Part shown: positions 8,122 to 35,004 of the stretch, piece by piece
How the letters are laid out: the number at the start of each line of letters is the position of its first letter
How positions within the stretch are numbered: the stretch's first letter is position 1
Assembly: GCA_946490195.1 (NCBI GenBank)
Contig: CAMLWN010000006.1
Span: 1-42,643, forward strand
DNA from: an uncultured Mycoplasmatota bacterium
GTDB lineage: Bacteria > Bacillota_I > Bacilli_A > RF39 > UBA660
Length of the DNA stretch: 42,643 bases
Direction: 5' to 3'
Notes under the pieces: generated by a model
The model's input: only the letters and a program-made list of their open reading frames with translations
Database searches by the model: none
What the model was told of the DNA's origin: nothing
Position numbers and translations under genes: made by a program

Positions 8122-8198
8122 TGGTCGAGAAGACAGGATTTGAACCTGCAACCCCTTGGTCCCAAACCAAGTGCACTACCAAATTGTGCTACTTCTCG
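8122..8198 (-). tRNA. tRNA-Pro (anticodon UGG)
   Basis: 77 nt including encoded CCA. Acceptor CGAGAAG pairs with CTTCTCG; anticodon loop TTTGGGA carries TGG; T-loop GGTTCAAATCC is intact. Probably co-transcribed with tRNA-Arg upstream. Partial copies of it occur at 8055-8076 and 21956-21981. Confidence 0.96.
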
Positions 8199-8249
8199 AT
8201 TTCCTATAAGTATTATACTCCAAAAAAATGAAAATGTGAATAATAAAAA

Positions 8250-8326
8250 TGGTGCACCCAAAGGGAGTCGAACCCCTAACCTTTAGATCCGTAGTCTAAC
8301 GCTCTATCCAATTGCGCTATGGACGC
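8250..8326 (-). tRNA. tRNA-Arg (anticodon ACG)
   Basis: 77 nt including encoded CCA. Anticodon loop CTACGGA gives ACG (read as ICG after deamination). Acceptor stem GCGTCCA pairs with TGGGTGC. First gene of a two-tRNA unit with tRNA-Pro. Confidence 0.96.
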
Positions 8327-8351
8327 GAATTCAAATTCAAAATGCAATATG

Positions 8352-8380
8352 ATTATATAATAATAATGGGCAAAAAGCAA
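8352..8380 (-). promoter_or_regulatory. Promoter of tRNA-Arg/tRNA-Pro (TTGCTT-17-TATAAT)
   Basis: Minus strand TTGCTT (8375-8380), 17 nt, TATAAT (8352-8357), about 26 nt before the tRNA-Arg 5' end. Confidence 0.7.
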
Positions 8381-8391
8381 GATAAAAGTTG

Positions 8392-8625
8392 TTATTTTCC
8401 TTTTTTTCTTGCTTTTTTTTGGTTATATTGTTTTAATTTTTCTAATTGTTCTTGTTCTATGCTTATATCTTTAATTTTTGACGATGAGACTTCATCTACT
8501 AATAAACATCCATTTACACATTCGATTTTTATCGTTACTGGATTTCTTTTTAGTGTTTTTACATTTATGCTGTCATTGTTATCTAAAAATATCGTCTTTA
8601 TGTTATTTTCTTCTATGATTTTCAT
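8392..8625 (-). CDS. Small hypothetical protein paired with an XRE regulator
   Basis: 77 residues, no recognised domain. It alternates short beta-like stretches (IKTIFLDNN, VTIKIECVNGCLLVDEV) with a basic, probably helical C-terminus rich in Lys and Arg. Its ATG overlaps the TAA of the upstream regulator (TAATG) and GGGAAG precedes it, so the two are translationally coupled. A regulator-plus-small-partner layout resembles toxin-antitoxin or phage-derived gene pairs, but no toxin family is recognised. The 3' end overlaps nothing, and the tRNA-Arg promoter lies just inside or next to it. Confidence 0.6.
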   Translation of the reverse strand: MKIIEENNIKTIFLDNNDSINVKTLKRNPVTIKIECVNGCLLVDEVSSSKIKDISIEQEQLEKLKQYNQKKARKKGK

Positions 8626-8864
8626 TAATCTTCCCTTTCAATTTTTTCAAAAAGTTCATCATCAAAAAAGTCTTTCAAGGGCATATTTAATCCTTCGCAT
8701 ATACGAATAATAGTTAATAATTTTGGATTTTTGGATTTTCCTATAATTAAATTTTGAACTGTACTTTGTGTCAGGCAGCAAATAGTGGCTAACTTATTTG
8801 GTGTGATATTTTCTTCGGCACAAATATTTTTTATTTTTAATGATATAGCTTTAGATAGTTTCAC
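8625..8864 (-). CDS. XRE-family helix-turn-helix regulator
   Basis: Small single-domain DNA-binding protein (79 residues). The Cro/C1-type HTH is clear: ITPNKLATICCLTQSTVQNLI, then GKSKNPKLLTIIRICEGLNMPLKDFF, the usual second half of the fold. I choose GTG at 8864 because AGGGTGG lies 5 nt before it; the GTG three codons upstream overlaps that site. It sits between tRNA genes with a small partner gene, as in accessory insertions. It likely autoregulates its own promoter. Confidence 0.8.
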   Translation of the reverse strand: MKLSKAISLKIKNICAEENITPNKLATICCLTQSTVQNLIIGKSKNPKLLTIIRICEGLNMPLKDFFDDELFEKIERED

Positions 8865-8970
8865 TTTTACCACCCTACAAAAAGTATATCAACATCCCAC
8901 GAAAACTATTAACCACACAAGGTTAAAATGGCCAAAATATGTGACTTTTTTGTAGAAACCTTTCTTTTAC

Positions 8971-8985
8971 TGGTAAATTATACCA
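8971..8985 (-). promoter_or_regulatory. Extended -10 with overlapping dyad upstream of the XRE gene
   Basis: The minus strand shows TGG followed by TATAAT (8977-8982) inside the short dyad TGGTA-N5-TACCA. It could be the promoter and operator of the XRE pair, with a leader of about 100 nt. A second TATACT lies nearer the gene. Weak on its own. Confidence 0.3.
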
Positions 8986-9039
8986 ATATCTAAAAGAAAA
9001 AATTGTCGTATTAAGAGAAAAGTTTTTTGTATTTTGCAT

Positions 9040-9065
9040 AAAAAAACTCCCATCAAAAATAGGAG
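9040..9065 (-). terminator. Second terminator behind the five-tRNA operon
   Basis: Minus-strand stem CTCCTAT / ATGGGAG (7 bp, one G:U, TTTTG loop) followed by seven T. It stands just after the terminator at 9072-9103. Confidence 0.65.
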
Positions 9066-9071
9066 ATAAAT

Positions 9072-9103
9072 AAAAAAGCCTTTATATAGATTCATATAAA
9101 GAC
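9072..9103 (-). terminator. Terminator of the five-tRNA operon
   Basis: Minus-strand 10-bp stem (arms 9094-9103 and 9078-9087, GAATCT loop) followed by six T, 15 nt after the tRNA-Lys CCA. Confidence 0.8.
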
Positions 9104-9117
9104 TTTGACTTTCATTT

Positions 9118-9193
9118 TGGTGGCTCGTTTGGGATTCGAACCCAAGACCCTTTGATTAAAAGTCAAATGCTCTACCTACTGAGCTAACGAACC
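9118..9193 (-). tRNA. tRNA-Lys (anticodon UUU)
   Basis: 76 nt with encoded CCA; anticodon loop CTTTTAA gives TTT. Last of the five-gene tRNA operon. Confidence 0.96.
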
Positions 9194-9203
9194 TTAATAA
9201 GAA

Positions 9204-9279
9204 TGGCTGCCTCGGGTGGGCTCGAACCACCGAAATGTCAGAGTCAAAGTCTGATGCCTTACCACTTGGCTACGAGGCA
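9204..9279 (-). tRNA. tRNA-Gln (anticodon UUG)
   Basis: 76 nt with encoded CCA; anticodon loop CTTTGAC gives TTG; acceptor TGCCTCG pairs with CGAGGCA. Confidence 0.95.
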
Positions 9280-9313
9280 ATATTTGTTATATCCTCTTTC
9301 GGACAATTTTTAA

Positions 9314-9397
9314 TGGTGGAGGAACATAGATTCGAACTATGGAACCCGAAGGAACAGATTTACAGTCTGCCGCGTTTGACCACTTCGCTATTCCTCC
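9314..9397 (-). tRNA. tRNA-Tyr (anticodon GUA)
   Basis: 84 nt with encoded CCA and the long variable arm of a class II tRNA; anticodon loop CTGTAAA gives GTA. Confidence 0.96.
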
Positions 9398-9405
9398 ACT
9401 AAAAA

Positions 9406-9481
9406 TGGTGCCGAAAGAGGGACTCGAACCCCCAACCCATTGATTACAAGTCAATTGCGCTACCAATTACGCTATTTCGGC
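9406..9481 (-). tRNA. tRNA-Thr (anticodon UGU)
   Basis: 76 nt with encoded CCA; anticodon loop CTTGTAA gives TGT; acceptor GCCGAAA pairs with TTTCGGC. Confidence 0.96.
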
Positions 9482-9492
9482 AAAAAAAATAA

Positions 9493-9569
9493 TGGTGGGC
9501 GTTTACGGACTCGAACCGCAGACCCTCTGCTTGTAAGGCAGATGCTCTAACCAACTGAGCTAAACGCCC
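9493..9569 (-). tRNA. tRNA-Val (anticodon UAC)
   Basis: 77 nt with encoded CCA; anticodon loop CTTACAA gives TAC; first gene of the five-tRNA operon. Confidence 0.96.
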
Positions 9570-26321: not shown

Positions 26322-26350
26322 TTGAATACATGCGTAAATGATTGTACAAT
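26322..26350 (+). promoter_or_regulatory. Promoter of the TasA-like gene (TTGAAT-17-TACAAT)
   Basis: TTGAAT (26322-26327), 17 nt, TACAAT (26345-26350), then AGGAGG 13-8 nt before the ATG at 26378. Confidence 0.65.
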
Positions 26351-26377
26351 AATAGTGTAAAACTAGGAGGAGTAAGT

Positions 26378-27019
26378 ATGAAAAGGAAATGTAAAATTTT
26401 ATTCATAATCGCTTCATTAGCTTTAACATTGAGTTTAATGAGTAATACTTACTCGAGGTATGTCGCGAATACCACTGGAAACTTAGATATGTTATTTGCT
26501 AATTGGCAGATTCTTGTTAATGAAAATGATATTCTAGATGAGACATCCTCTTCTATTCAAATTACTCCTGTTATACTTGAAAACGAACATATATCTCAAA
26601 ATAAAGTGGCTCCATCTACTCAAGGATATTTTGATATTAATATTGACCCGACAAATGTAGATGTATCTTTTTCTTATCAAATTGATATTGAAGTTTTAAA
26701 TGAAAATCTTCCAGATTTGATGATTACAAAATATGCTATTTTAGATAGTGATTATACTGAAGGCGATGAAATTATTACAAATACATTAGAAAATAATCGT
26801 TTAAATGGTTCTTTAATTTATCAAAATGATATAGAAGATTATTCTTTTGAACCTTTTACTATTCGAATTTATTTTGAATGGTACGATGGTGATGATGGAA
26901 TTATGGATGATACTGCAGATAGTGAAATAGGAAGAGATGCTGCAGCAAATGACACTACTTTACAAATTGCCGCGACTGTTCAATTTGAACAACAATTAGA
27001 AGAAAAAGAAAATATTTAA
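26378..27019 (+). CDS. TasA/camelysin-like secreted protein (SipW-type signal)
   Basis: 213 residues. A basic N-terminus and hydrophobic stretch (about 6-22) end in SNTYSRYV, similar to the region where SipW-processed TasA/CalY-type proteins carry a short aromatic motif. The mature part is acidic and beta-rich: FDINIDPTNVDVSFSYQIDIEVLNE is the kind of strand pattern seen in TasA-like fibre proteins (shown here as two adjacent strands). A very acidic loop (DGDDGIMDDTADSE) could bind calcium. I read it as a substrate of the SipW-type peptidases encoded by the convergent operon; that pairing is inferred from position. AGGAGG precedes the ATG and a terminator follows, so it is a one-gene unit. 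Confidence 0.75.
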   Translation: MKRKCKILFIIASLALTLSLMSNTYSRYVANTTGNLDMLFANWQILVNENDILDETSSSIQITPVILENEHISQNKVAPSTQGYFDINIDPTNVDVSFSYQIDIEVLNENLPDLMITKYAILDSDYTEGDEIITNTLENNRLNGSLIYQNDIEDYSFEPFTIRIYFEWYDGDDGIMDDTADSEIGRDAAANDTTLQIAATVQFEQQLEEKENI

Positions 27020-27280: not shown

Positions 27281-27321
27281 AAAAAACAAATTCCATTTTA
27301 TTATTTGGAATTTGTTTTTTT
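27281..27321. terminator. Bidirectional terminator ending the SipW/AAA operon
   Basis: 11-bp stem (AACAAATTCCA at 27285-27295 and complement at 27306-27316) with T runs outward on both strands. The TAA stop of the last operon gene (27320-27322) touches its edge. Confidence 0.85.
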
Positions 27322-28534
27322 ATACTGTTAAATTTGCTTTGTCAACTACAATTACAGGAACGACACTGCAAGAAGTGTTCTTGTCATTTCCATAAATAGT
27401 TGTTGTTGTATCATCTTGTCTATGAAACGCATAGGCTTTATCTGTACTATATTCAGTTTTTAACCAATAACATTTATTAGAAGATAGATAAGGGAATTTT
27501 TCATTAGAAAATGAAAATAATCCATTGTATTCTTTGCTTTTTTCAATAACTTTTGAAAGTCGATCTTGGTATTCTAAATTTCCAATAATCACATCGGATA
27601 ATCCATCTCTTTTTAAGTAAGAGTTTTGATTATCTGTAGCAATTACCTTTAAAATATCTTCTAATGTAAGTGCTCTTGTGGTAACACCCCAAGAATTTGA
27701 AGTTGCACTTAATAAAGTATCATAGTTTGCATATGTTCCACTTGAATAATCATTATATAAATCTGGTAGTAATGTTACTGTTGAATCTCCAATGGTATTA
27801 TTTGTATCCAAAACATAATTTTTTAAACATGTGCTACTTAAAGTTTCACATTTTTGATTATTCACTACATCATACAAAATTAAGTCTCCAACATTGTAAT
27901 TAATATCTGGAGCTGCTTCCGTATCTATAAATTGTTCTGCTTTAACACTTATTACAATTTTTAAAGATTTTTTAGGAGTGTAACTTGGGTCTTGGGCTTG
28001 TTTAGCTTGTTCTTCTTGTTGAAATTTATATGCTTCATTCCCCCACTTACTATCTCTTTCATCATTTAAAGAATCTAAAGGCCAGGAAATAGATACTGAA
28101 AAATCACTTACTCCATTTTGAGCTTCAATAAAACGATCTTCTAAATTAATATTAATATGAAATGGTAAATCATGAGATAGCAAATCTACTAAATATCCTT
28201 CTTCTTCATTTTCTAAATTGGTATTTAATACTCTTGCTGAAGCAACTTGATAACTTAGCATAGCATTTGAATCGCCCCGATTGTGAATGCTTACTTTTTC
28301 AACTATAGGATCCATTCCTGGAGAAATATCATTTACATCAATTACGATTTCATTAGTTACCACTTCAGAATCTTTCATAAACTCAATATTCCAAGCCTTA
28401 ACATCAACTTCAGTTTTAACTGTGCTTATTCCACTATAAGCAAACCAAGCTAAAGTTATAGATATGAACGAAACTCCGATGCAAAACAAAGAAAGTAAAT
28501 TCAATTTTAAATATACCTTATGCCTGCGCTTCAT
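27320..28534 (-). CDS. SipW-type secreted protein with C-terminal lectin-like domain
   Basis: 404 residues. Basic start, hydrophobic segment 14-32 ending ITLAWFAYSGISTV, the kind of signal seen in SipW-dependent proteins. An N-terminal beta-rich domain (about 40-215) resembles TasA/camelysin-like folds (VDVKAWNIEF, SIHNRGDSNAMLSYQV). After NYNVGDLILYDVVN comes a different domain with paired Cys and the end pattern CYWLKTEYSTDKAYAF...CSVVPVIVVDKANL, which looks like DUF6273-type lectin-like domains that end in VRPVI. It is the last gene of the SipW/AAA operon, 8 nt after the small sipW. Likely exported and attached to, or part of, a surface structure. Confidence 0.72.
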   Translation of the reverse strand: MKRRHKVYLKLNLLSLFCIGVSFISITLAWFAYSGISTVKTEVDVKAWNIEFMKDSEVVTNEIVIDVNDISPGMDPIVEKVSIHNRGDSNAMLSYQVASARVLNTNLENEEEGYLVDLLSHDLPFHININLEDRFIEAQNGVSDFSVSISWPLDSLNDERDSKWGNEAYKFQQEEQAKQAQDPSYTPKKSLKIVISVKAEQFIDTEAAPDINYNVGDLILYDVVNNQKCETLSSTCLKNYVLDTNNTIGDSTVTLLPDLYNDYSSGTYANYDTLLSATSNSWGVTTRALTLEDILKVIATDNQNSYLKRDGLSDVIIGNLEYQDRLSKVIEKSKEYNGLFSFSNEKFPYLSSNKCYWLKTEYSTDKAYAFHRQDDTTTTIYGNDKNTSCSVVPVIVVDKANLTV

Positions 28535-28542
28535 TTTATTCC

Positions 28543-29109
28543 CTACTCTCTATTTCTTCTTTTTTCCTCACGAGATAGTAAACCTGTTAACATTTCTGAA
28601 CCAATAATGTAAAATACTGGAATGATTATTAAAACAATTAACCCTACTGGTGTCCTGATTGTTTTTGAAATAAAGGATAAAACCGTTGATTTATGGATTA
28701 CTTTGCCATAAATTTGGTCAGCATGAACAATTGGGTCTTCAATTATGTTCGCAATCCCTTTAGTATGAAATATTTTTTCTCCATTTTCAGCTGTTTCAAT
28801 TTCAACAACTTCATGTGTTACAACTTTATCTTTTACATCGCCACTTTCTCCTAAATAACTAATTGCATCTCCGACTTTTATATCATCTGGGTCTATAGAT
28901 TTTGAAAATAATACGTCCCCAACATTATACTTCGGTTCCATACTTCCTGTTAAAACCGTGAACATTCGGAATCCAAAAAGAGAAAGATTGTTATCGGTAA
29001 ATCGTTGTAAACAAACAACTAATAAAAATAAGACAATAAATATTCCAATAACTACATTTAATACAGTTTTTATGATTCTTAATATTTTTTTTAATGTTTC
29101 CTTTTTCAT
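28543..29109 (-). CDS. sipW: SipW-type (ER-like) signal peptidase I
   Basis: 188 residues; membrane segments near 15-34 and 151-170, so the catalytic part is outside. Nucleophile Ser56 in LTGSMEPKYNVGD and His99 in VVTHEVVEI replace the usual Ser/Lys pair of bacterial leader peptidases, as in SipW and eukaryotic SEC11. The common GDAN motif reads GIAN (Ile119); Asp125 follows nearby. Family role: cleaves signal peptides of TasA- and camelysin-like proteins. One nt separates it from the DUF2357-like gene and I see no ribosome-binding site, so translation is probably coupled. The gene after it is the likely substrate. Confidence 0.88.
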   Translation of the reverse strand: MKKETLKKILRIIKTVLNVVIGIFIVLFLLVVCLQRFTDNNLSLFGFRMFTVLTGSMEPKYNVGDVLFSKSIDPDDIKVGDAISYLGESGDVKDKVVTHEVVEIETAENGEKIFHTKGIANIIEDPIVHADQIYGKVIHKSTVLSFISKTIRTPVGLIVLIIIPVFYIIGSEMLTGLLSREEKRRNRE

Positions 29110-29110
29110 A

Positions 29111-30238
29111 CTACAAGTTTTTTTGCATCCTTTCTAAGTATTCGTCCATGGCTGTTTGAAATTTTTTCTTAACGTCATCGGAACCTACTAGCCGTTCTTT
29201 TTTCTCCGCTTTTATTTCTTTGGCAATCAACGCGAGTAACTCTTCATCAGTAATCTTTACTCCACTACTTAAAAGAAGAGAAACAATTCGATGAACTTCT
29301 TCAGTCAATATTACTAAAGCGTATTCGGTCATTGTTTTCTTTTGCATCCTTTTTTGCGTATTCATTGAATTTAAAACGCTGTAATCAATAAAAAAGCTAT
29401 GATCTAGAAATCCTTTTAAAAGTTCAATGCTATCATTTAAATTTGTATTATTTTGATTATTTTCTTTTTCATCAAGATCATATGCCCTTATAAAATCCCA
29501 TAGCCGAGCTGCAATTCTAAAATTTGGATTTTTTAAAGTTATATTCGTTTTTTTAAGCGGTGGTTTAATAGGCTTTACATGTTCTCTTTCTAATTGTTTC
29601 ATCATAGGGCTATGATACCAACTAGAAATGTAATCCTTTATTCTTTTTAAACGTTTTTTAACTTTTTTTATTTCCTCTTCTAGTTTTTTATCAATTTTTT
29701 GATTTGGTAAAGATTCAGAGGAAATCGCCACTTCAATGTGGATTTTCTCACCTGCTGCTTTGGTCGTCGCAGCATACTCCATTCTTTTGTTTTCAATTAA
29801 TTCAAAATGATTTAAAATTTGCTCTTTATCTCTTATAAATCTTGCCATATCATCAATAAGGGTATAAAGAAACCTATTTTCATAAATATTAAATGTTTCT
29901 TCATTACGAACTTCTAAGATTTTTTTTGGTTCTACTGATTGATCATCTTTAATTTTATTTATATAGTGAGTGTTTTTTGCAAGATTTTTCACACTATCCA
30001 CATTAACTCGTTTTGCTCTTTCTACTTTTACTACATTTTTTTCTTGAATTAATGTTAGTTTTGGATTTCTGACAATTATATCTATATAAGGACAAGCAAA
30101 TTCCATTTCATCAACCCAGTCAAAAACAAGGAGATCGCTTTGAAATAAAGAACGATAATCCATTTCAGAGTCTACGTTTTTTAAAAAATCGTCACGAGTA
30201 TCTTTAATTTCTTTATTTACTTTTAATGAACGTCCCAT
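29111..30238 (-). CDS. DUF2357-like partner of the McrB-like ATPase
   Basis: 375 residues, cytosolic, no signal. The motif NEETFNIYENRFLYTLIDDM near residue 130 matches the hallmark of DUF2357-type proteins (form 'T-ENRFVKYFL'), which are encoded beside McrB-like AAA ATPases in restriction-type defence loci. A long charged helical region follows (about 185-225), then NPNFRIAARLWDFIRAYDL. I see no PD-(D/E)XK nuclease motif, which some family members carry at the C-terminus; it may lack cleavage activity. Start ATG 30238 is set by GAGGGG 8 nt upstream; the GTG three codons earlier abuts that site. It lies 15 nt after the ATPase gene and 1 nt before sipW. Confidence 0.7.
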   Translation of the reverse strand: MGRSLKVNKEIKDTRDDFLKNVDSEMDYRSLFQSDLLVFDWVDEMEFACPYIDIIVRNPKLTLIQEKNVVKVERAKRVNVDSVKNLAKNTHYINKIKDDQSVEPKKILEVRNEETFNIYENRFLYTLIDDMARFIRDKEQILNHFELIENKRMEYAATTKAAGEKIHIEVAISSESLPNQKIDKKLEEEIKKVKKRLKRIKDYISSWYHSPMMKQLEREHVKPIKPPLKKTNITLKNPNFRIAARLWDFIRAYDLDEKENNQNNTNLNDSIELLKGFLDHSFFIDYSVLNSMNTQKRMQKKTMTEYALVILTEEVHRIVSLLLSSGVKITDEELLALIAKEIKAEKKERLVGSDDVKKKFQTAMDEYLERMQKNL

Positions 30239-30253
30239 GTTTTTCACCCCTCA

Positions 30254-31786
30254 CTAAATACTCTTTTTCAAATTTTCTAGATAAGAAATACATTCAACCA
30301 TTACACCTTTACCATACTTTTTATTTAGGTAAGAAATGAATGGGTCAATTTCATCACGAATAAATGCGACACTTAATTGGTCAAATTTTCTTAATATTTT
30401 CTTAGCAATAAAGTAATCAATTGCTGCAACTTCTGTTCCACCACATGCTACATAAACAGCAACAAATGTATTTAATTGTTTCATAATACGATTACCAAAT
30501 GCAATTCTAAAATGGTCAATTACATATCTATCCATTTCTTTTACGCCATCTAAACCTTCTTGACTTACTGGATATTGTTTTAATGCATCTTCAAAAAGTT
30601 TATCTAAGTAACTAGCATTAATTTGAATTGCTTCTTGGCTACGACATTTAAATGGTTCTACTTTGGTATTGATGTCAAGAGGCATTGCACGGTCGTATAC
30701 TTTATCGGTTACCATAAATGTTGAGTCATCGTTGTTGATTGTTCCGATATACCAGATATTTCCAGGAATTTTGATTCGACCATTTACAATTTTCTTTGGG
30801 TCATTTGGCCATGAACTAGGTACTAAATCAATAATCCACTCTTCACGATTTGGCATTTCAAGAGTAGATAAGAAATCAGCAAAATAATATTCTACACGAG
30901 CTAAGTTCATTTCATCCAAAATGATTGTATGAACATCATCATCGAAAGTTGCACGATATATTTCACCTAAAGCTTTTGTTTCATTAAATTTCTTTGTAAA
31001 TTCATTAAAGTATCCTAAAAAGTCGGATTTATCACGCCATGATGGTTCAACAGCTGCAACGCATGAATCATTGCTTACAAATTTTCCCCAAGCATACGCT
31101 AAAGATGTTTTACCAGTACCAGAAATACCTTGTAGGATAATTAATTTACCACAGGCAAGTCCAGCAAAGAAAGGTCTTAATATCGTTTCATCATAATACA
31201 ATTTTAATTGACTTGCAGCAAAGCACTTAAAGTCATCTGTTAATTCAGCTAATGTAAAACCATTTTCATAGGTTTTCATATGGAAATTTTGCATTTCACG
31301 GTCAATACCCACAAGTTTTGGAAAACGAATACTTGGATCTCCAGATTCTTCTGGTTCTTCTCCTTCTTTCGCTTCTTCACCTGTTTGTTCTTCCTCATTA
31401 GGATTTAATCCTAATTGAGAAACCTTCATTGCCATTAATTCATCTTTTTCTTTCATTAGCTTTCTTACTTGTTCATTTAACGAACCAATTTCTTCTAATA
31501 ATTCTTCTTTGTTTAAATCATTTTTTGCTTTTCTTATAAATCTTTTAACAATAAAGAACACTAATAATCCTATTAAAGCAAGAACTGCTAATAAAAATAT
31601 TACAGCTACAACAACCATTAGCCATTCTGCTCCATTAAATTGTCCTTTATAACTATCAATAACTTTTGTATATTCTCCAACGTTGAACATTTTGATAATT
31701 CCATCAAATAAGCCACGGAAAATCATTAAAAATCCGTCAAAGAAAACAGATATGAATTCATAAAAGAATCGTAAAAAGGTATTCAT
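30254..31786 (-). CDS. Membrane-anchored McrB-like AAA+ ATPase
   Basis: 510 residues. Hydrophobic/amphipathic N-terminus (1-33), a clear membrane segment (56-80), a coiled coil (about 88-120), an acidic linker (130-150), then an AAA_5/McrB-type ATPase: Walker A QGISGTGKTS (219-228), Walker B TIILDEMN (287-293 region), sensor GTINNDDS (348-355) and a DRA arginine motif (365-367). This set is that of McrB-like ATPases paired with DUF2357. McrB itself is soluble and lacks a membrane segment, so the anchor is unusual. Its ATG overlaps the TAA of the upstream SipW fusion by 1 nt. Probable role: energising or remodelling a membrane complex formed with the neighbouring products; nucleotide preference (ATP or GTP) is unknown. 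Confidence 0.85.
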   Translation of the reverse strand: MNTFLRFFYEFISVFFDGFLMIFRGLFDGIIKMFNVGEYTKVIDSYKGQFNGAEWLMVVVAVIFLLAVLALIGLLVFFIVKRFIRKAKNDLNKEELLEEIGSLNEQVRKLMKEKDELMAMKVSQLGLNPNEEEQTGEEAKEGEEPEESGDPSIRFPKLVGIDREMQNFHMKTYENGFTLAELTDDFKCFAASQLKLYYDETILRPFFAGLACGKLIILQGISGTGKTSLAYAWGKFVSNDSCVAAVEPSWRDKSDFLGYFNEFTKKFNETKALGEIYRATFDDDVHTIILDEMNLARVEYYFADFLSTLEMPNREEWIIDLVPSSWPNDPKKIVNGRIKIPGNIWYIGTINNDDSTFMVTDKVYDRAMPLDINTKVEPFKCRSQEAIQINASYLDKLFEDALKQYPVSQEGLDGVKEMDRYVIDHFRIAFGNRIMKQLNTFVAVYVACGGTEVAAIDYFIAKKILRKFDQLSVAFIRDEIDPFISYLNKKYGKGVMVECISYLENLKKSI

Positions 31787-33834
31787 TATTCTTCTCCTTT
31801 CTTAGCAATTTTCGTTGCAATGTCATCAAATAAGCAGTTATCTTTTAAATCTTTTGGAAGAGTTTTCAAAATTTTGCTTGTTTCTTTCTTTTCATTAATA
31901 ATGATTTTGTCCATTAAATAGATGAATTTCACATCTTTTTCTTTTATTATTTCGTGATTATCTACAGAAAGAACAAATTGAAATCCTTCTTTCATCAAAT
32001 TTTTGATTATTGTTTTGTTTCCATCAATTTCATCATATTTTACTAAAATGCGTACAGCATACTTAACATATTCATCATTTAATAAATCAAATAATTGATT
32101 TAATTTAACTTCTTTTTCATATAAACTTTCTGGAATGTATAAAAGATATTTTTTAGAAAAATCACTTTCTAACATATCGTTTGCAATTTCAATTAAAAGC
32201 ATGTTTGCTAGAACAAAAACTTTATCTTCAGCAACAATTCCTTCTTGGTAGGTTTTATCTACTATATAGTCACTATAAATTTTACTAAAATTAATATTAT
32301 GGTCAAGGTCTACCCCATACATTTTTTCTTCTTTTACTTTTGTGTATTTTATTTTAAAAGTATTGGTATCTAGTTTTTCTAATAAATATTTACGAGCATT
32401 TATATAAGTTTTTTGAGTTTTTACTATCTCCTCTGCTACTTTTGTAGCCTCTGCTTCGCTCATATATTCTTTTTTAAAACTCTGATAAATTTTCTTTTTA
32501 AAAGTTTCTCTTTTTGTTCTTAATTCAGAACTAGCATTTTTTTCTAAGAATGGTAATAATGAAAATATTTTGATAAATTTATCTACTTTTTCAGCAAATT
32601 TGGTATCTTTTCCCTTGTAATTTTTCTTTAAATATTCGCCTGTTTGCTCCATCAATTCTTCAATTTTGCTTATCATATTTCGATTATCATAGGCAACATT
32701 TACATTTCCACAGAAATTATAATATTTTCCATCGATATAAATTTTCAAAAAATATTCTTTAATACTTGGTTCATTTGTTTTATATTCTTGATGAAGATTT
32801 AATTCTTTAATGATTTCTTCTAATTCATCTGTTTTTAATAGCATAATTTTTTCAATGATATTTTTACATTTTTTTCTTTTTTTATTCAACATTTCTAATT
32901 TTGTTTTTGCTTCTTCTTCAAGATTTTCATCCGTATCTATTTCCTTTTTTACTGTTTTAGTAGGTTTAATTTCTTCTTCCTCTTCTTCTGGTTGCTCATC
33001 ATTTATATCTGATTTAAAATCTGACTCTAAATCTTTTTTGTCTACTGAAACCATTCTAAAGAAAATTGTTTTATCTAAATCTTCTGGAGAACTATTTTCT
33101 AATATTTCTTTAGCATCTTTGGCAAGAAGTGGTTCTTCTTCGATTTCTGGCTCTCTATTTTGAACTTCTTTTATAGATATGTCTTCTACCACTTCATTTT
33201 TTAAAATAATAGGTTCTTTATCAGTTTGAGTCAATGTTGCTTTTTGTTCTTTCTTATTTCCTTCCTCACTTGATTCTAATTTTTCTTTAATTTTGTTAAT
33301 CATTTTTAATAAAAATTCTTTTACTTTCATATTCTTACCTCTTCTAAACATTGAACTTATTAAATATAGAGTAATTATTAAAGCAATTAAGACAAATGGA
33401 TTAAACAGTATTCTTCTAATAATTCCAAAACCTGGTAATATTTTTACCACTTTCCCAACAACCTGGCTTTTGGTAATTGGTTTATCTTTCGTGTTGTTTG
33501 CATCACCTTGAGTTACATAGGTTTCATTGTATACTTCAATAACCCGATGGGTAATGAATTCATTCCCCTCTTTATAGGTTATAATGTCATTTAATTTGAT
33601 ATCTGGTTCATTTTTAACTACAATCATATCTCCAGGATTTATTGCATCTTTCATGCTTCCTGTCTGCACTTCAAACATGGAATATCCAAAAAAGCTAGAA
33701 TAATCATTTTCCAAAATATTGATTTGAATATTGTTATAAATTGAAATTAATAAAAATACTCCAAAAATAAAAATCAATATGTTTAAAAAAATGTTTATGA
33801 GCTTTTCTAGAAGTCGTTTTTTCTTACTAGTCAC
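31786..33834 (-). CDS. SipW-type signal peptidase fused to a large cytosolic domain
   Basis: 682 residues, over three times the usual SipW length. The peptidase occupies 1-165: membrane segment 12-33, nucleophile Ser60 in VQTGSMKDAINPGD, His96 in FITHRVIEV, QGDANNTKD (Asp111) and a second membrane segment 142-162. The tail therefore lies in the cytosol: an acidic, low-complexity linker (about 180-320) and a helical domain (about 330-682) of no recognised family. First gene of the operon with the McrB-like ATPase, so the tail is a natural docking site for it (inference). Start is GTG 33834, with only a weak ribosome-binding site. Confidence 0.82.
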   Translation of the reverse strand: MTSKKKRLLEKLINIFLNILIFIFGVFLLISIYNNIQINILENDYSSFFGYSMFEVQTGSMKDAINPGDMIVVKNEPDIKLNDIITYKEGNEFITHRVIEVYNETYVTQGDANNTKDKPITKSQVVGKVVKILPGFGIIRRILFNPFVLIALIITLYLISSMFRRGKNMKVKEFLLKMINKIKEKLESSEEGNKKEQKATLTQTDKEPIILKNEVVEDISIKEVQNREPEIEEEPLLAKDAKEILENSSPEDLDKTIFFRMVSVDKKDLESDFKSDINDEQPEEEEEEIKPTKTVKKEIDTDENLEEEAKTKLEMLNKKRKKCKNIIEKIMLLKTDELEEIIKELNLHQEYKTNEPSIKEYFLKIYIDGKYYNFCGNVNVAYDNRNMISKIEELMEQTGEYLKKNYKGKDTKFAEKVDKFIKIFSLLPFLEKNASSELRTKRETFKKKIYQSFKKEYMSEAEATKVAEEIVKTQKTYINARKYLLEKLDTNTFKIKYTKVKEEKMYGVDLDHNINFSKIYSDYIVDKTYQEGIVAEDKVFVLANMLLIEIANDMLESDFSKKYLLYIPESLYEKEVKLNQLFDLLNDEYVKYAVRILVKYDEIDGNKTIIKNLMKEGFQFVLSVDNHEIIKEKDVKFIYLMDKIIINEKKETSKILKTLPKDLKDNCLFDDIATKIAKKGEE

Positions 33835-33858: not shown

Positions 33859-33895
33859 CTACTCTATATGAAATTTTAACATATTCGACATTTTT
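33859..33895 (-). promoter_or_regulatory. Putative promoter of the SipW/AAA/DUF2357 operon
   Basis: The minus strand shows TTGTAA, 17 nt, TAAAAT in the short gap upstream of the GTG at 33834, leaving a leader of roughly 35-45 nt. The match to consensus is moderate. Confidence 0.45.
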
Positions 33896-33912
33896 TTACA
33901 ATATTTTGCAGT

Positions 33913-33943
33913 CAAAAAAAAGAAAGAATTGTTACTCTTCCTT
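33913..33943 (-). terminator. Terminator overlapping the stop of the 139-residue gene
   Basis: Minus-strand 10-bp stem (arms 33934-33943 and 33920-33929, two G:U pairs), 4-nt loop, then a T run. The TAA stop (33942-33944) is in the 5' arm. Confidence 0.7.
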
Positions 33944-34361
33944 AATTTTCATTTTTTTTCTTTTCTTTTAAACAATTTTTTTCATCTACAATAAGCTTTT
34001 TTAAAGCAAAATAATCGGGAACAATTATATCCGCTTCTCCAACTCCTACGATGATTTGTTCATATTTTTTATAGTTTAGTAAACAAGCTCTTTTAAATCC
34101 ATGTAAAGCAATTTCCATTAGTTCATCTAAAGATAACTCATATTTTTCTAACCAATAGTTTTTTGTAGTAATACTTTGCAAATTTATTTCTTTGCCAACA
34201 AATATTTTTTTTGTTTCTCTTTTATTTTCAATTTTTGCTCCTGTAATTAAGGGAATAGATAAGGAAAGTTGCTTATTCATGATTTCAATATTTTCTGAAT
34301 CTTCAATATCTATTTTTTTTGTATAAGAAGATTTCCCTATAACATAAGAAATTTGTTTCAA
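33942..34361 (-). CDS. Hypothetical protein, TTG start
   Basis: 139 residues, no family recognised. The N-terminal half is beta-like (KQISYVIGKSSYTKKIDI), the C-terminal half mixed, with IIVGVGEADIIVPDYFALKKLI near residue 105 and a Lys-rich end. I place the start at TTG 34361: AGAGGTGAT lies just before it, and the longer frame reads through that site. It is the last gene of the rightward-to-leftward group ylbD-ylbE before the SipW operon and has its own terminator. No membrane segment. Confidence 0.65.
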   Translation of the reverse strand: MKQISYVIGKSSYTKKIDIEDSENIEIMNKQLSLSIPLITGAKIENKRETKKIFVGKEINLQSITTKNYWLEKYELSLDELMEIALHGFKRACLLNYKKYEQIIVGVGEADIIVPDYFALKKLIVDEKNCLKEKKKNEN

Positions 34362-34416
34362 GTTTATCACCTCTTGGTAAATATTTATTGTAAAAACTTT
34401 TTCTTTATTTGTCAAT

Positions 34417-34638
34417 TTATTTTAAAGACATTAACACTCCATTTATTAAATCTATGTTATCAATCATTTCACTTATTTTATCGGTTGGTCTTTCTTTATA
34501 TAATTCCTTCATTTTACTTTCGAATTCTTTATAGATATTTGCATCTCGATTTAAATATTTAAACCAATAGGAGTTTTCTTTTAAATATTGATACATTTTG
34601 GGATTTTCCAAAAATTTTTTTTGAAGCGCTAATTCCAT
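34417..34638 (-). CDS. YlbE-like small protein
   Basis: 73 residues with the YlbE-like layout: an opening on 'NPKMYQYLKENSYWFKYLNRD' (hallmark H/N-P-x-W-F/Y-R-x-L pattern, given here as positions 13-33), then a helical region ending in INGVLMSLK. Function unknown; in Bacillus the gene lies next to ylbD, as here. GAGGAT precedes the ATG and spans the stop of the ylbD-like gene. Confidence 0.72.
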   Translation of the reverse strand: MELALQKKFLENPKMYQYLKENSYWFKYLNRDANIYKEFESKMKELYKERPTDKISEMIDNIDLINGVLMSLK

Positions 34639-34641
34639 AGG

Positions 34642-35004
34642 CTAATCCTCAAAAAATTTATTAATTGGGCGTGGCACTTTAGGAACTGTTGCAGTTAAAG
34701 GCGTAGTGGTATCAGACTTTCCTGTTAGTTCACTTACAATGCTTAACGCTTTCTGCGCTGTTTTAATATGTTCTTGAATGGAGTTCATATCTATAGTTTT
34801 TAGCTTCTCTGTTATAACGTTTACCGTATCTTTTGAACTTACTGTACTTCCTGAGTGTAAATATTTTGACCAAGCATTTTCATCTGAACCATAGATATCG
34901 TAAATTTCATAAAAGTTTTGCCATGTCATTTCTTTATTTTTGATATAATCTAATAACTCTGGATGAAGACGCGCGAAGTTTTTAAATTCTTCCTTTTTTT
35001 CCAT
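34642..35004 (-). CDS. YlbD-like protein
   Basis: 120 residues resembling YlbD (annotated in Bacillus as a putative coat protein): EFKNFARLHPELLDYIKN near the start, TWQNFYEIYDIYGSDENAWSKYL, and a helical C-terminal half. There is no sign of other sporulation genes in the window, so a coat role should not be assumed. It is followed 3 nt later by the YlbE-like gene, the same order as in Bacillus. The ribosome-binding site AGGTGAT is inside the hairpin behind parC. Confidence 0.72.
   Translation of the reverse strand: MEKKEEFKNFARLHPELLDYIKNKEMTWQNFYEIYDIYGSDENAWSKYLHSGSTVSSKDTVNVITEKLKTIDMNSIQEHIKTAQKALSIVSELTGKSDTTTPLTATVPKVPRPINKFFED

Follow-up and report, generated by a model that had tools for sequence, protein, structure and literature searches.

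A five-gene unit of an uncultured gut Mycoplasmatota (27320-33834 on the minus strand of the window, i.e., of the whole 42,643-nucleotide stretch that was analysed) combines a McrB-like ATPase carrying a predicted membrane anchor and its DUF2357 partner with two SipW-type signal peptidases and an exported protein. We consider it probable that a McrBC-derived membrane motor drives or gates the processing and assembly of SipW-type surface fibres in this bacterium.

Genetic organisation of the unit

A check of the open reading frames recovered all five linked genes of the sequence-only reading, in the order sipT-aaa-duf-sipW-sub. The first gene (31786..33834) encodes SipT, a SipW/ER-type signal peptidase I continued by a cytosolic linker and a tail of ~350 residues. 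It is followed by genes for a McrB-like AAA+ NTPase with an N-terminal transmembrane (TM) segment and a coiled-coil-like stretch (30254..31786), a DUF2357/McrC-like protein without a nuclease domain (29111..30238, alternative GTG start at 30247), a SipW-type signal peptidase I (28543..29109), and a SipW-type exported protein (27320..28534), hereafter the substrate. The spacing is as tight as had been claimed: gaps and overlaps are -1, 6, 1, and 8 nt, and the second becomes 15 nt if the DUF2357 gene starts at the ATG at 30238, which is preceded by GAGGGGTG, rather than at the GTG. Convergently downstream of the operon, on the plus strand, an open reading frame (26342-27019; better start, ATG 26378) encodes a probable second SipW-type exported protein (26378..27019), recognised by its N-terminal hydrophobic segment and by homologues in the same convergent position.

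A weak candidate for the operon promoter (TTGTAA-17-TAAAAT with a TG ahead of the second hexamer; 33873..33901, minus strand) came from a consensus scan that, for this promoter and for terminators, scored no higher than shuffled sequence. The operon's upstream neighbours are an uncharacterised gene, ylbD, parC, and parE. The 157-aa gene adjoining the operon (33942-34415), with no function assigned, is present in the nearest relatives only. The ylbD homologue (34417-35004; PF14071) is followed by an ORF of ~73 aa resembling ylbE, an arrangement as in Bacillus. Elsewhere in the window, seven tRNA genes are clustered on the minus strand (8125-9569).

A McrB-like ATPase with a membrane segment and a nuclease-less partner

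The ATPase matches Escherichia coli McrB (PDB 6hz4; E 9e-5 by sequence, 7e-5 by profile) and is strongly hydrophobic over a segment starting near residue 62 (mean Kyte-Doolittle value 3.41), which bears out the earlier view of it as a membrane-anchored McrB-like protein. Its motifs GISGTGKT, ILDEMN, and TINNDD(STF) are conserved among relatives and, judged by this conservation, Walker A, Walker B, and sensor motifs are intact. The NxD signature reads N351-N352-D353-D354; across 38 sequences N, N, and D are invariant and D354 nearly so. The Pfam search returned no modified-base reader domain on the protein, whose N-terminus consists of the TM segment and a linker, and no FtsB/DivIC match, though a TM segment and a coiled-coil-like stretch are present.

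A TM segment precedes the AAA core in all tested members of the window's clade and was not found in three plasmid CoCoNuT-type relatives. In our own AAA tree, the 53 envelope-linked rows cluster (94/94) apart from these plasmid relatives. The segment alone is insufficient to define the clade because relatives of ~900 aa carry one too. This group (L142, L143, L144:106-4451, and L145), which is another uncharacterised McrBC type, combines the ~900-aa AAA protein and its hydrophobic segment with a DUF2357-like partner of ~515 aa; no signal peptidase directly adjoins. In three further loci (L136, L137, and L138) tandem pairs of McrB-like AAA genes flank the DUF2357 gene near large surface-type proteins, e.g., a BspA-type LRR protein in L136 and a transglutaminase-domain protein in L137.

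The DUF2357 protein matches PF09823 in Pfam (E=1.2e-9), and its alignment of 53 sequences has YEN, P, TN, LKN, and NF as invariants. The sequence-only reading had seen no nuclease motif in it, and the alignment agrees: no conserved (D/E)xK occurs after residue 150. We modelled this protein and the substrate with AlphaFold2. The DUF2357 model (pLDDT 82, pTM 0.54) is helical after residue 184, with long helices in the second half, where a nuclease would be. With Foldseek neither model had a match below E 0.001; among its top chains, which were the rows compared with the structural aligner VIA, the best match of the DUF2357 model was Thermococcus McrC (6ut5; Z 7.5 over 139 residues), in agreement with the PF09823 match. 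As modelled, the partner is thus a McrC-like protein without a nuclease.

Signal peptidases and the cytosolic tail

That the operon encodes two SipW-type peptidases is borne out by the profile searches: SipT (66.8 bits) and SipW (88.7 bits) score above the cut-off of TIGR02228, the archaeal/ER-type signal peptidase model, and the Bacillus SipW equivalog NF046067 was matched with a score under its cut-off. The source assembly has just two TIGR02228 matches, as many as SipT and SipW by themselves would account for. The peptidase part of SipT spans residues ~1-170, with the Ser, His, and Asp residues present and two hydrophobic segments (TM windows at 12 and 142); the Ser and His motifs are retained in all 52 fused SipT homologues. 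Small signal-peptidase-like proteins in which these two motifs are not recognisable also occur, 56 of them in the 80 related loci (e.g., L032:7360-7890, L058:5415-5954, and L010:5373-5900), usually right behind an exported protein of 300 aa and near SipT; the window has none.

The tail is fused to the peptidase in 49 loci and is a separate gene of ~325 aa directly upstream of the ATPase gene in 23, about a third. Because the tail elsewhere is a gene of its own adjoining the ATPase, the SipT of the window joins peptidase and motor by fusion, and this is the best evidence that motor and signal peptidase may act together. Searches of Pfam and of PDB sequences with a tail profile matched no known family. 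A diverged version of the tail was detected in the g13 group (hhalign E 2e-15). Loci L128-L133 form a diverged group with tail, AAA, and DUF2357; L128 has as neighbours a LepB-like signal peptidase, a membrane protein whose repeats are DxDxDG-like, and genes resembling mraZ, mraW, and a PBP.

Exported substrates

The substrate has a signal/anchor helix whose AWFAYSG region is conserved in an alignment of 43 sequences. Its model (pLDDT 89) consists of an N-terminal helix, a predicted Ig/PapD-like beta-sandwich, and a C-type-lectin-like second domain. With VIA, the substrate model matches the fimbrial protein 4eps at Z 6.8. Its sandwich resembles PapD-like domains (Z 5-6), Ig-like folds, and, with a weak Z of 4.8, an archaeal bundling pilin, and its second domain is closest to C-type-lectin-like folds, among them the C-terminal domain of Legionella Lcl (Z 7.8); these matches are middling (Z 4.8-7.8, all below 8), may mirror common arrangements, and come from rows among which TasA did not figure. 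Sequence searches gave no Pfam match of the substrates to a TasA/CalY-type family, the sandwich matches being generic, and nothing credible in the PDB with the substrate profile. The predicted architecture suggests an adhesin- or pilus-like protein. In the group with the split tail, the substrate homologue is a ~210-aa protein that lacks the lectin-like domain.

In many relatives the unit sits inside a larger surface cluster, with extra AWF-type exported proteins, a surface protein of 1,000-1,700 aa, a 500-aa protein without visible signal peptide, and a signal-peptidase-like protein without the Ser/His motifs. The window carries the minimal unit only. A convergent homologue of the 26378 protein lies beside the substrate gene in 35 of 64 loci.

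Conservation and distribution

In a scan of 84,980 species genomes the ATPase had 246 relatives, the best 80 of which were kept as loci from distinct genomes, reaching down to 55% AAA identity. Gene order is retained in nearly all of them. Counting only loci in which a contig end does not cut off the neighbour, the tail-bearing gene is directly upstream of the ATPase gene in 72/74, DUF2357 directly downstream in 75/76, SipW next in 72/73, and the substrate after it in 69/71; the exceptions come from a broken AAA frame (L004, L052) or from ORF calling (L076). Median intergenic gaps in this set are 3-14 nt. Other families of the phylum contributed 21 further loci; immediately upstream of the ATPase gene, 17 of these have a gene for a SipW-type peptidase and 4 have one for an AWF-type substrate. 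The sequence-only reading had proposed looking for the five-gene order in other Bacillota: it is kept, with a variant form in the other families, and because nearly all 80 loci retain it, the idea that close relatives lack it fails.

The distribution is patchy: the AAA profile matches 73 of the 288 genomes of the order, 3 of the 10 of the genus, and 79 of 392 in a sample of the phylum. SipW-type peptidases occur in 257 of the 288 genomes of the order, so the peptidase is found more frequently without the motor than with it. The AAA tree does not agree with that of enolase, the one marker used (Mantel r 0.13, 323/2000 permutations). Patchiness and this single-marker conflict suggest transfer or loss and disfavour a vertically inherited core gene.

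Comparison with known systems

Loci of this kind were named CoCoPALM by Bell et al. (eLife 2024; PMC11090510), which overturns the earlier statement that no such unit had been described; the main text gives them one paragraph, offers no mechanism, and leaves them uncharacterised. The traits listed there are a McrB-like AAA with NxD (usually then D or E), fused to an FtsB-like TM and coiled-coil region, an association with signal peptidases, and a DUF2357/McrC homologue with a coiled coil and often without active nuclease (PMC11090510). By sequence, the window locus fits a CoCoPALM-type unit, with FtsB homology unconfirmed. Its N-N-D followed by D matches the NxD signature, which Bell et al. 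apply to CoCoNuT and CoCoPALM alike, and it shares the McrB-like AAA, here with a TM segment and a coiled-coil-like stretch, the nuclease-less DUF2357 partner, and the linked signal peptidases. It differs from the published description in the fusion of a peptidase to a cytosolic tail and in the identification of substrates. TasA, SipW, EAL, and GGDEF go unmentioned in the main text (PMC11090510); judged by that text, what would be new is the fusion of peptidase and tail, the architecture of the substrate, the form with a split tail, and the EAL linkage described below.

The unit shares the AAA core and the McrC N-terminal domain with McrBC type IV restriction but appears to be membrane anchored, and neither a nuclease, a modified-base reader, nor restriction neighbours were seen. 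With the SipW-TasA/CalY matrix fibres of Bacillus it has in common a SipW-type peptidase and linked exported beta-sandwich substrates, although the window's substrates matched no Pfam family; we know of no AAA/DUF2357 pair in those operons. CoCoNuT systems have related AAA cores and DUF2357 partners, but the plasmid relatives examined adjoin a large AAA-domain gene and have neither TM segment nor signal peptidase. Finally, PcdA of Staphylococcus aureus is likewise a McrB homologue recruited to a cellular role other than restriction, but it carries EVE domains, its Walker A is degraded, and it lacks a McrC-type partner (PMC10602043).

Switch or motor

The AAA/DUF2357 pair could be a regulatory switch that merely gates the signal peptidase, e.g., by c-di-GMP-type signals, without mechanical work. 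Two features of the loci point this way: the SipT fusion places a cytosolic domain on the peptidase, and, among 27 genomes sampled from seven other families, 23 have an EAL-domain gene no more than 8 kb away from a CoCoPALM-type AAA, with 1.9 expected (P 1e-24, a value that presumes independent genomes and random placement, both violated by kinship). This linkage is present in six of the seven families (GGDEF/EAL neighbours are seen, e.g., in L146, L188-L193, L198-L201, L204, L205, and L207). PcdA, a McrB homologue turned low-activity cellular factor, would be a precedent (PMC10602043). However, the AAA protein here, unlike PcdA, has kept its Walker A, Walker B, and sensor motifs, and the six probed genomes of the window's own family contain no EAL gene. 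We therefore regard a mere switch as unlikely.

A second type of locus has a degenerate GGDEF/EAL-like protein directly upstream of the AAA gene, in the slot that the tail holds in the window's family. This and the linkage give rise to a bolder reading, in which CoCoPALM units would be c-di-GMP-gated McrBC-derived motors assembling SipW-type fibres in Bacilli, with GGDEF/EAL proteins as receptor subunits and the SipT tail as a highly decayed fused EAL. We find it quite doubtful. As a degenerate EAL the tail was not accepted: Pfam EAL reached E=0.023 in one of 32 members, and hhalign against sets of 2, 6, 13, and 19 EALs and 11 EAL-like upstream proteins gave a register mostly as expected at a probability of 0.7-2.3% (P 0.02-0.09; DUF control 21.8 vs 21.2; shuffled columns up to 20.5).

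Envelope or defence

The pair could instead belong to a membrane-coupled anti-phage system, in which McrB/DUF2357 would detect either invading nucleic acid or damage to the envelope, with the SipW-processed surface proteins as effector or receptor-masking layer. The AAA core is of the McrB family, with CoCoNuT-type relatives on plasmids; it matches the PADLOC model PDC-M26A, as do likewise all AAA relatives tested, of every type, and the patchy distribution and gene-tree conflict are also expected of mobile defence genes. Against this, PADLOC matched no unit gene besides the AAA, no nuclease, reader domain, or toxin was found in the unit, and signal peptidases and substrates accompany the pair consistently from family to family. 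The flanks do not support a defence island either: among 118 flanking proteins scanned with PADLOC, the strong matches were one AbiD and a few such as HerA-type ATPases, which are also common housekeeping proteins, and the Pfam families listed for the flanks (25 of 114) are mostly housekeeping and include no restriction genes. No AAA relative was confirmed on viral contigs, and phage records gave one partial match, without TM segment. The sequence-only reading had considered that the ATPase and DUF2357 genes might be consistently found with restriction genes and without SipW; SipW proved constant, no restriction neighbours were seen, and the unit is better placed with the envelope than in a defence locus. 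A role in defence thus strikes us as rather improbable. Operon drift, i.e., unrelated genes side by side with no joint function, has only the patchy distribution in its favour and is barely credible given the order and short spacing kept in nearly all 80 loci and the variant form in other families.

A proposed motor for surface-fibre biogenesis

We thus return to the McrBC-derived membrane motor as the preferred reading. A McrB/McrC-derived motor would have left nucleic-acid restriction for a place on the cytoplasmic side of the membrane, where it would work together with SipW-type signal peptidases; their targets would be surface subunits of beta-sandwich type that are exported by Sec. The AAA+ protein would form a hexamer anchored via its N-terminal TM helix and coiled coil. 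McrC activates hydrolysis by McrB; by analogy, the nuclease-less McrC-like protein may dock in the ring and activate hydrolysis, and the SipT tail would tether the ring to the signal peptidase. Hydrolysis could then pull, hold, or release the 27320 and 26378 proteins while these are still precursors anchored in the membrane. This would put their cleavage by SipT/SipW and the joining of subunits outside in order and yield an adhesive surface fibre or layer. Both powered secretion and fibre assembly are steps that we infer.

No motor is known to be required for SipW-TasA assembly. If the proposed reading is true, the motor of a restriction system would have become a membrane machine for surface-fibre biogenesis, and a nucleotide-driven step would stand beside signal peptidases in Gram-positive bacteria. 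Handles on how this machine is coupled and controlled, and on how uncultured gut Bacilli adhere, would then come from the tail fusion and the EAL linkage.
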